From Chloroflexota bacterium (GTDB lineage Bacteria > Chloroflexota > Limnocylindria > Limnocylindrales > CSP1-4): a DNA stretch of 64,000 nucleotides. The position numbers were made by a program, and so were the translations under genes. Location: assembly GCA_026004015.1 (NCBI GenBank), contig BPIH01000004.1, forward strand, positions 1 through 64,000, given 5' to 3'. Below the pieces are notes generated by a model. It made no database searches and had not been told where the DNA came from. It saw nothing but the letters and a program-made list of their open reading frames with translations. This document shows positions 3,608-35,374 of this stretch, piece after piece. Numbering within the stretch: the first letter of the stretch is position 1; each line of letters opens with the position of its first letter.

Positions 3608-4095
3608 AGCGCGGTGCGATCCGCGACCGCGAGCGCCGCGACGGGCGACCGCCTCGCCGTCGTCCTCCGCCTCCGTCGCCTCGACGAGGACCGCGCCCGG
3701 CTCGGCCCTCGCCGCGGCCCTGGCCGCGAAGCGGACGCCCGGGAGCGCTTCGTCCGCGCTCCGGCTCGAGCATGAACGGCCTGTGCTGCGGACGCTCGCG
3801 CGCTCCTCGGGAGCCGTCGGCGACGCGGCGACCCTCGCCGGAGCGGCGGCGGACGTCGAGGTCGCCGAGCGGCGGCGGCGGCCGGCCGCCGACGAGCTGG
3901 CGGCGGCCCGGCCGGGCCGTCGAGGAGGCGCGGGCGCCGCTCGCCCTGGCCACCCGGCGACGGGAAGCCGTCGAGCGGCTCCGCCAGCGCCGGCTCGCCG
4001 AGCGCGGCGCGACGTGGAGCGCCGGACTCGAGCGGGAGCTCGACCGAGATCGCCCTCGTCCGGCATGCCCGGGCGCTCGCCGAGGCCCGGGCTGA
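3605..4095 (+). pseudogene. fliJ: FliJ-like protein remnant, frameshifted
   Basis: ATG 3605 gives [33 protein letters not shown] immediately after fliI; Arg/Glu/Ala-rich coiled-coil composition broken across frames. Confidence 0.35.
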
Positions 4096-5685: not shown

Positions 5686-7413
5686 ATGCAGATCCTCTCT
5701 TCCTCGATGGAACCCGCGGGCTCCTCACCGACCCGCGCACCGTGGCCGAGCCGGGACCGAGTCCCGGCCGAGCCGCACGCGGCCGATCGGGACCGTCTCG
5801 GTCGGTTGGCGCCGACGACGCTGCGTCCGACGCCGCCCCAGGGACCGCGTCGTGCGGCCGAGCTGGCACCGGTCGAGCACGACGCCCGTGGCCGATGCGC
5901 CGGCCAGGGTCGCGCCGACGGCGGCCCCGTCCGGCCGCGGCCGGAGCGAGCCCGACGGGCACCGCGCCATCGTCGGGCCGCCCCGACTCCTGCGGAGGTC
6001 GGGCTGTTGGCCCTCCCCGGGGTCGGCACCTCGGGCTGCGACCGGCGTCCCCGCGCCATCGTCCCGGTCGAGGGAGGACAGCCCGCCCGGGGCGGTGCGT
6101 CCCGGCCGGCTCCCGGCCGGCGGCCCGACCTGGCCGATGCCCCGGACGCGCACCGCGCGCCGACGCGGCGTCTGGCAGCGGCCGACTGGTCGCCGCAGTC
6201 GGACGCGTCCCGGGCTGTCGCCGCCTGGCTCGCCGCGCTCATCGCCGAAAGCGTGCCTGATCGGCCGCCGTCTCGGGGCGCCTGCCGTCGAGCCCGCGGG
6301 CTCGGGCGGTCTCGCCGGCGTCGAGCCCGCCCCGGACAACGGCCCGCCGCAGCCGCCGGACGTGGGCGTGCGAGCCCGCATCTGGCGACCCGCTCGGGCT
6401 CGGTGGAGATCCCTCGGGTCCGAGCCCGCCGCCGGTGCGCGCGGCGGCCGCGCCGGCCGGTGTCGACCCCGCCGACAGCCGTCGTCAGTCCCCGCCCTCC
6501 CGACCGCGGCCCGCGGCCGCGGCCAGCGGCCGAGCGGGGTCGCCGGGCCGTCGGAGGATCCGCCGGCCGCACCTCGGGTTCCCTGGCGCCGGGACCCGCC
6601 GTCGCCCGTCGGCCTGCCGGGATCCGTGGCCGGGCCCCGCCGACGCGGCACCGGCCGCCGGCTCGCAACCGACCGGAGTCGCGGACAGCGTCGGCGCTCC
6701 GCCTCGATCCCTCGGCTGTGCCGCAGCCGTCGCTCCCCGAATCGCCGGCGCTGCTCCACGCCCCATCGCCTTCGGCGCGGTCCGGACGGCGACGCCGCCA
6801 GCCGCAGCGGCGCCCGCCGGTCGCCGACCGGATGCCGACCGACTGCTCGCAGCGGTCGCCGAGCGGATCCGGCTCGCCGATTCGCGACCGACTGCCGGCC
6901 CTCGAGGCGACCTTCCACGACCCGACCCTGGGTTCGGTCCGCCTGGCCGTCCGCGGCCTCCCTGACGGTCCCATCGAAGCCGTCGTCGTGGTCGCGACCG
7001 AAGCTGCCGCTCGCGGACTCGAACGGGCGGCCCGCGAGGCCGACCGGCGCTCGGCAGACCCTCTTGGGATCGAGCTCCGGATCCGGGTCGAACCTGCCTC
7101 ATCGGCCCCGGTCACGGCAGACGCTCGCCCGGAGCACCGCGCGCCGGGCCACGCTGGCGTGCACGACGGGTTGGGCCAAGGGGGACCCTCAGGCGACCAA
7201 ACCTCCGCCCGACGAGATCCGGCCGGCGCCGACGCCGGCCTCGGCGCGGACGATGGCGGGCGACAAGGCGACCCATCGACGCCGGAGGGGCCCGTCGGCC
7301 CCTCGGGGAGCGCCCGTCGCGGGCGGTCGACCGGTCCGACGACGGCCCCGCTGGCGGGCCCGAGTCGCGGCTCCGTGGCGGCTCGGAGCGGCGGCATCGA
7401 CATCCGTCTCTGA
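5686..7413 (+). CDS. Putative flagellar hook-length control protein (FliK-like)
   Basis: Pro/Ala/Arg-rich long N-part; C-part [60 protein letters not shown]; directly upstream of flgD. Confidence 0.45.
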
Positions 7414-11633: not shown

Positions 11634-12011
11634 TGGTGGAGATGGGGGAGAGTCGAACTCCCCGTCCAGAGCCCTTCGCCAGGGACCAGCTACGAGCGTG
11701 TCCGGTGGTTTGTCGTCGATCGGTCGGCCGGCCACCGGCAGCCTGCCGGCCGATCCAGCCACGTGTCCCGAAACTGGGCTTGGCTCCGGCCCACGCGGCG
11801 CTCGGCCGGGCTGCAGCCCCGCTTCATGACGCTTCCACGACCCGCGGGGCGGAGGTCGCTTCCACGCTCACCTAGGCGGCCTTAGGCCGCGAGGGCGAGA
11901 GCAGACTGGCGGTTGCCAGTTACTTCGATTTGCCGCCTGTTTTCCGAGGCCTGACGGCACCTCGGCTCGCGTTCCCTGACAGCCAGACCCTGTCGAGACC
12001 ACGCATCCCCA
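11634..12011 (-). ncRNA. ssrA: tmRNA (ssrA)
   Basis: 5' GGGGATGCGTGGTCTCGACAGGG pairs with 3' GGACGGGGAGTTCGACTCTCCCCCATCTCCACCA; tag ORF GGC AAC CGC CAG TCT GCT CTC GCC CTC GCG GCC TAA = (A)GNRQSALALAA preceded by AGTAACT. Confidence 0.95.
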
Positions 12012-29296: not shown

Positions 29297-33865
<4,569 letters not shown>

Positions 33866-34400
33866 TCTACCATCCAGCCCCCTTCTGACGGCCCGAGGCG
33901 GGGACCCGGGAAGCCATGGTCGCGGGGTCGACGAGTCGTGGGCTCGCGCCTGACCGCCGAGGCTCGACCATCGTGGCCCGCCTCTCTTCGCCGGATCCCA
34001 GCCCCAGGCGTGACCGTCGCCGCCCGCGGTCCCGCGCCCGAGCAGCACCACGGAAGCCGCCCACTGCCGGCCGGGGCGACCGCCGGCGTCGAGCGCGAGC
34101 GGCCTCGATCGCGCGCGGCCGCGCGAGTGCGGGCGCCTCGAACCCGCTCTGGGCAGGCGGCGGAGCCGATGGTTGGCCGGTCGCTCGAGGGAGCTCGCCG
34201 GCCCAAATCCCGACCATGCGGCCATCATCGTCGAGCCCGCGTATCAGTTACGTATTTCCGCGACGTCCGCTCGCCGACGGCTTCGAGGTGCTGCCTCCCG
34301 GGGAGGGGAGGGACGGTCGCGCAGGTCGAATGACCGGGCGGCAGGGGAGCATCGTGCCCGGGAGGCCCCGCCGCGAGGCCGAACGCAGCGACGGCAGGGA

Positions 34401-34416
34401 CGTTTCACGGGAAACA
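34401..34416. promoter_or_regulatory. parS-like site 1 (CGTTTCACGGGAAACA)
   Basis: One or two mismatches from TGTTTCACGTGAAACA. Confidence 0.8.
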
Positions 34417-34422
34417 CCGCAG

Positions 34423-34443
34423 GGCGGGCCGATTCGGCCCGCC
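34423..34443. repeat. Hairpin repeat copy 1 GGCGGGCC-GATTC-GGCCCGCC
   Basis: Perfect inverted repeat directly after parS site 1. Confidence 0.75.
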
Positions 34444-34553
34444 GCTGCCGCTGCCGGCGGTGCGGCTCCGGCCAGGCGTTGGCGACGACCACGACGAGCC
34501 GCCTCGCCGTCGTCGGTCGCGCTCGCCCGGACCGGTGCAGCGTGTCGCGGTGG

Positions 34554-34569
34554 TGTTTCACGGGAAACA
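34554..34569. promoter_or_regulatory. parS-like site 2 (TGTTTCACGGGAAACA)
   Basis: One mismatch from TGTTTCACGTGAAACA. Confidence 0.85.
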
Positions 34570-34575
34570 CCGCAG

Positions 34576-34596
34576 GGCGGGCCGATTCGGCCCGCC
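34576..34596. repeat. Hairpin repeat copy 2 GGCGGGCC-GATTC-GGCCCGCC
   Basis: Identical to copy 1, same offset from parS site 2. Confidence 0.75.
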
Positions 34597-34722
34597 GCTG
34601 CCGCTGCCGGCGGGTGCGGTCCCGTCAGGCGTCTGCGACGTCCACGACGAGCTCTCTCGGCGATGAGCCCTCTCGCCGACGTCGGTCACGCTGCCCCAGA
34701 CTGCTGCAGTGTGTCGCGTTGG

Positions 34723-34738
34723 TGTTTCACGGGAAACA
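34723..34738. promoter_or_regulatory. parS-like site 3 (TGTTTCACGGGAAACA)
   Basis: Identical 16-mer to site 2. Confidence 0.85.
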
Positions 34739-34873
34739 CATCGCTTGGCGTCCGACCATCGCCATCGCGCACTCGCGCCGCTCCGTATACTCGAAGGCCC
34801 GCGCAAGCCCTCCCGGTTCCGTCTCGACCGTGAGTGAATGCCGGCAGGGCGCCGGGTCGGGAGAACCGCCCGC

Positions 34874-35374
34874 ATGACCTACCTCGTCGGCGGGGCCGCC
34901 GCCCTACTCGCGGCGCTGCTCGAGCTGACCCTCGTGCCGTACCTCGACGTCGGGGGCGCTCATCCCCATCTCGTCCTCGTGACGGCCGTGGTCGCTACCG
35001 TCGCCCTCACCTTCGAGATCGGGCTCGTCGTCGCCGTCGCTGGAGGTCTCGCTCTCGACATCCTCGGCCCCCGCCCACTCGGCTCGTCGATCCTCGTGCT
35101 CCTTCTCGTCGTCGGTGCCGTCGGCCTCTCCTCGAGGGTGCTCGACGCCCTTCGTCTTGTGGCACCGGTCGTCCTGACCGGGATTGCCAGTCCGCTCTTC
35201 AGCCTGGGCCTCATGGTCGTTCTCGGCGTCGCCGAGGGTCGGCCCTGGGTCGACGACCCGGTTGGCGTGGTCCTTCCCGGCACCATCTACGACGTCGTCC
35301 TCGCCGCGCTGGTCGGCCCCCTCGTCGTGTCGGTCCGGGCACGGGTTCTCGAGGCGGAGCGGTTCGAATGGTGA
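34874..35374 (+). CDS. mreD: Rod shape-determining protein MreD
   Basis: MTYLVGGAAALLAALLELTLVPYLDVGGAHPHLVLVTAVVATVALTFEIGLVVAVAGGLALDILGPRPLGSS; upstream of mrdA/rodA. Confidence 0.8.
   Translation: MTYLVGGAAALLAALLELTLVPYLDVGGAHPHLVLVTAVVATVALTFEIGLVVAVAGGLALDILGPRPLGSSILVLLLVVGAVGLSSRVLDALRLVAPVVLTGIASPLFSLGLMVVLGVAEGRPWVDDPVGVVLPGTIYDVVLAALVGPLVVSVRARVLEAERFEW

Follow-up and report, generated by a model that had tools for sequence, protein, structure and literature searches.

The window, by which we mean the whole 64,000-nucleotide stretch of DNA that was analyzed, contains a parAB locus whose genes lie on the minus strand. These are parB (31871..32783, with Pfam ParB_N and HTH_ParB domains) and parA (32780..33865, encoding a 361 aa ParA/Soj-type ATPase, Pfam AAA_31 5e-65), with gyrB on the same strand as part of a conserved context (29871..31874, 71–85% identity to same-class relatives outside families f3 and f5). 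Divergent from parA, on the plus strand, is mreD (34874..35374, Pfam MreD 1.4e-6 and synteny). The parB reading frame is broken by a frameshift near 32110 (window 32080–32140, minus strand) between the HTH and C-terminal dimerization domains, which puts the dimerization part in another frame; the gene is intact in relatives, and the ParB protein as assembled may be nonfunctional. The nearest named matches to ParB were Chloroflexi MAGs, with Candidatus Aquidulcis less similar; on these names, the window would come from a Chloroflexota bacterium of the class Limnocylindria. The order gyrA-gyrB-parB-parA-[parS]-PBP2-rodA is common to relatives in families f1–f5 of the Limnocylindria; in most f1 genomes, mreD was also found to separate parS from PBP2, and the parA–mreD/PBP2 interval holds a parS site in the f1, f2, and f4 loci that we read. 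In five relatives, the parAB locus lies 20–37 kb from dnaA. Elsewhere in the window is a tmRNA gene (11634–12010, minus strand) with the tag GNRQSALALAA.

Three predicted parS sites, identified by sequence match, lie between parA and mreD on the plus strand: S1 (34401..34416, CGTTTCACGGGAAACA), S2 (34554..34569, TGTTTCACGGGAAACA), and S3 (34723..34738, TGTTTCACGGGAAACA). The original prediction had described three near-identical 16-mers here, spaced by 153 and 169 bp and sharing a T-to-G change in one half-site, and each of these details held. The sites differ from the canonical 16-bp parS (TGTTNCACGTGAAACA) at one or two positions. In every site, one half is changed at position 6, which is C in place of A (GTTTCCC vs GTTTCAC), and S1, S2, and S3 are all in the same orientation. 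Scanning the window with TGTTTCACGNGAAACA at up to three mismatches gave six matches (the three sites on both strands) against 0.15 expected, a number that none of the shuffles reached. The array begins 536 bp upstream of parA, the position next to parAB that is typical of parS. A whole-genome scan for the 16-mer had also been proposed; at up to two mismatches it returned no scattered copies, only these three, across an assembly of 1.37 Mb in nine contigs that is 54.75% complete, and more parS sites may lie in the missing part. Three copies in one interval is the few-and-clustered pattern of chromosomal parS. The syntenic loci of relatives place the interval near the origin, dnaA itself being absent from the incomplete assembly. 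Under the scheme of PMC7383237, the adjacent ParB has the contact residues of a cognate, parS-type protein (R173, T179, D184, and G201), and its best PDB match is the Spo0J structure 1vz0 (E 1e-60), which has the same recognition helix and which we take to be the Thermus protein. We conclude that the neighboring parAB almost certainly has its parS sites in the three 16-mers.

Since the sites occupy a divergent promoter region, with S3 136 bp upstream of mreD, and 45% of the genome is missing, they might instead act mainly as ParB operators that autoregulate the parA and mreD promoters, leaving partition to parS in the missing part. We regard this as improbable: The same interval in relatives holds parS, often the only sites in the genome within one mismatch of the consensus, and a sigma-70 consensus scan of the parA–mreD interval gave no promoter-like match.

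The array consists of two units, each made up of a site, a hairpin block, a spacer, and a tail, followed by the third site. Unit 1 (34401..34553, plus strand) and unit 2 (34554..34722, plus strand) align end to end, with an extra ~15 bp in the spacer of unit 2, and the sequence downstream of S3 is unrelated to the units and runs into mreD (34874). The tails, counted with the site that follows, span ~79 nt at 85% identity. They contain the block shared by the sequences preceding S2 (TGCAGCGTGTCGCGGTGG, 34536..34553, plus strand) and S3 (TGCAGTGTGTCGCGTTGG, 34705..34722, plus strand), which had already been pointed out. The proposed duplication of a ~155–170 bp composite unit is thus borne out and is larger than described, because units 1 and 2 align over their full length. 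A stretch of this size that already held the variant would have been tandemly duplicated to give three like-oriented copies, and this is why all three sites share both the variant and the orientation. An independent tandem triplication is present upstream of parA in another genome (G064, L140, about 3690–3900), where a canonical parS unit is repeated at 94 and 96 bp, and G017 and G080 show weaker signs of tandem parS multiplication.

Within the units, S1 and S2 are each followed at a fixed offset by the same block with a perfect hairpin, as predicted. Copy 1 (34423..34443) and the identical copy 2 (34576..34596) read GGCGGGCC GATTC GGCCCGCC, with a 9-bp stem and a 3-nt loop, and a looser second stem comes after. 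An intrinsic (rho-independent) terminator was considered and rejected, as this is a GC hairpin lacking a U run: No T run adjoins either copy on either strand, and no terminator-like site was found on either strand between 33600 and 35100. The original prediction held instead that the hairpin might be part of the centromere, in which case the hairpin, a cruciform, or a bound protein would aid ParB loading or block ParB sliding and would owe its retention to that role. What speaks for such a composite is that units 1 and 2 share an identical 57-nt run (the site, the hairpin, and the next 15 nt), with 19 differences elsewhere (P about 0.004 if the differences were placed at random), and that folding of the block is more favorable than that of shuffled sequence (z −2.2 to −4.0), a difference that is suggestive but, at 72% GC, weak. 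However, gene conversion would yield the same run, which fits either selection on the block or a conversion tract; S3 has no hairpin; and such hairpins are frequent in sequence of this composition, with 36 of stem ≥8 bp in the 64-kb window, about one per 2 kb, vs 19–34 in simulated sequence. Comparison of the parA intergenic regions of relatives recovered parS but no conserved hairpin module: In none was a hairpin seen at a set distance from parS, the closest relative compared being from another genus, and most hairpins near their sites simply extend the parS palindrome. We therefore give the composite reading only a slim chance. Searching the genome for the block as a repeat element produced only short partial matches. 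The hairpin was most likely copied along as a passenger of the duplication. Separately, we noted three loci of relatives in which parS sits inside a far longer perfect palindrome, with stems of 11–15 bp (L029, L142, and L147).

We next consider how widespread the variant is. Of 46 further genomes checked from the same family, every one has one to three sites upstream of parA, at least one of them with a CACGTG core, and G006 alone adds a weaker CCCGTG site; beside this set, the window genome is unusual as the only one with CACGGG at all of its sites. The canonical sites of these relatives resemble those of the window in interval, gene order, and copy number and are sometimes tandemly multiplied, but they keep CACGTG and have no fixed-place hairpin beside the site. 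A search of 177 genomes from the class for the 14-mer GTTTCACGGGAAAC found it, besides the window genome, only in G056, where the core again lies upstream of parA, with looser forms of the same base change in G131, G143, G154, and G060. Across 400 genomes of the phylum, 17 carried it, with 26 matches listed vs 6 for the reversed control. Among them, six species of genus g71 have two copies apiece, G507 and G511 each have one copy upstream of parA, and G378 is described below. The named genome collection yielded no congener of the window's organism, and none of its 30 parS-like sites had a CACGGG core. In family f3 (L158–L178), parS sits a short distance upstream of where parA starts, and many loci have a half-degenerate form (TGTTTCACGTGTGACA) with only one good half.

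A close counterpart to the array is in G378 (Chloroflexota family f9), which likewise has three T-to-G-type sites, two of them exact, in the same orientation and within a repeated block upstream of parA. There, however, the sites are only 50 and 55 bp apart, the block preceding each site (TGTTTCACCGTCA) holds an extra parS half-site, and a hairpin block of the kind seen in the window was not noted. The threefold block of that locus (L223, 7540–7680) reads TGTTTCACCGTCATGTTTCCCGTG(A/G)AAC and has the extra half-site 13 bp ahead of every asymmetric one. The sequence GTGTCGC, 13 bp before S2 and S3, resembles this spacing, and we considered an extra half-site at a fixed offset and rejected it; no enrichment of GTTTCAC was found at any offset in 75 parS flanks (best z 2.5).

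The departure from the palindrome pointed out in the original prediction is not unique to this array. In Thermus thermophilus HB27, the chromosomal parS is TGTTTCCCGTGAAACA, the reverse complement of the variant 16-mer. It differs from the consensus at one position, and T. thermophilus ParB binds it specifically in electrophoretic mobility shift assays with competitors (PMC4409726); the same sequence also appears in Table 1 of PMC7022226. As in the window, the Thermus site, identical but on the other strand, lies beside parAB near oriC, and the ParB that binds it shares its recognition helix with the window ParB. Unlike the window's three copies, it is a single copy inside gidB with neither tandem units nor a hairpin. 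Judged by this precedent, the T-to-G form is a rare but recurrent and experimentally supported form of parS, not a new one.

It had further been suggested that the non-palindromic half-site could give ParB loading, or sliding, a preferred direction. All three sites are indeed oriented alike, and Chloroflexota often have asymmetric sites, but tandem duplication alone is expected to give uniform orientation, and orientation varies among lineages. The variant half is the one farther from parA in the window genome, G378, and G507 and the one nearer to it in G056 and G511, and sites that are asymmetric at position 5 occur in both orientations within a single locus (L143 and L145). In genus g71, the second of the paired sites has a CCCGTG core in four species and a CACGGG core in the other two, and its flanks, taaa...tttaggc, are unchanged. 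We thus consider a directional role very unlikely. Members of this genus (L218–L222 and L232) carry two asymmetric parS 264–270 bp apart, a DnaA-box-like TTATCCAC adjoins the first, and point changes have reversed the core of the second between species. Genus g71 thus shows orientation to be free and asymmetry to be kept. A speculative reading of the asymmetry kept despite the flip is that a pair of unlike half-sites tunes ParB loading or release.

The least credible alternative is that the sites are parS/NBS hybrids for a Noc-like protein. At position 6, GGGAAA is a half of the NBS type, and parS and Noc sites differ at just two bases, this being one (PMC7383237). However, NBS (ATTTCCCGGGAAAT) combine A at position 1 with C at position 6 in each half, are scattered, and go with Q173/R201, whereas the window's sites share the position-6 C in one half only, have the parS-type G at position 1 in both halves, are clustered beside parA, and adjoin a ParB with R173/G201. 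The helix of the genome's second ParB (GKDKGYLEN) is unrelated, and that protein has a palindromic site of its own.

Turning to the residues of ParB, we found Ala at position 170 of the window protein and Gly in every other ParB compared. Residues 184 and 179 were tried as determinants of the variant and rejected, D184 being present also in relatives with CACGTG sites. R173 has been called absolutely conserved in ParB (PMC7383237); we observed two ParBs with Noc-type Q173 (L185 of G060 and L181 of G149), whose parS bear an A at the first position of one half or of both (TATTTCCCGTGAAATG; TATTTCACGTGGAACG). In G496 and G302 (L253 and L254), paired, fully symmetric TGTTTCCCGGGAAACA palindromes lie 26–29 bp apart and away from parAB. 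The ParBs of these two genomes, and those of G507 and G511 (L226 and L227), which have one-half variants, carry A201 instead of G201. Residue 201 may be connected with the identity of base 6.

A second ParABS was also found. In the window genome, parA2-parB2, with the helix GKDKGYLENRLRL, lies at 7010–8789 of L034 (G000:C3:114000-130000), and relatives have it as well (L036, L038, and L045–L052). An 18-bp palindrome with the consensus [TC]GTCTTTGCGCAAAGAC[GA] accompanies it, at about −1.9 kb and often at −0.2 to −0.4 kb relative to the ParA2 P-loop and, in 11 of 14 loci, at +1.29 kb, inside parB2. The window genome has one perfect copy, at C3:118913. We put forward TGTCTTTGCGCAAAGACA as the candidate ParB2 site sequence; the 14-mer of the palindrome had no match in the literature that we searched.

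Established ParB biology suggests how the original array would work. A ParB dimer would load with CTP on each site, close as a clamp, and slide onto the flanking DNA, and ParA would then move the ParB–DNA complex together with the origin region. The C at position 6 in one half would be tolerated by ParBs of this kind, as it is in T. thermophilus, and the hairpin, lying inside the duplicated stretch, would most likely have been copied along. We consider this account as a whole, in which the sites are parS of the adjacent chromosomal ParABS, the variant is tolerated, the array was tripled by local duplication, and the hairpin was carried with it, to be highly probable. By comparison, we think it quite unlikely that the hairpin block functions in the centromere unit of this lineage and that the one-half variant was also selected as such.

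The lopsided site is thus best seen as a recurrent, precedented form of parS and not as a new directional centromere. The arrays show that parS clusters expand by short tandem duplications, which happened independently at least twice in this family. Symmetric sites, one-half variants, and both-half variants at position 6, together with their ParBs, would form a natural series for examining how far ParB tolerates change at the base by which parS and Noc sites are told apart. Finally, the second ParABS, with its own palindrome and its conservation in part of the Limnocylindria, may merit more attention than the array from which this analysis began.
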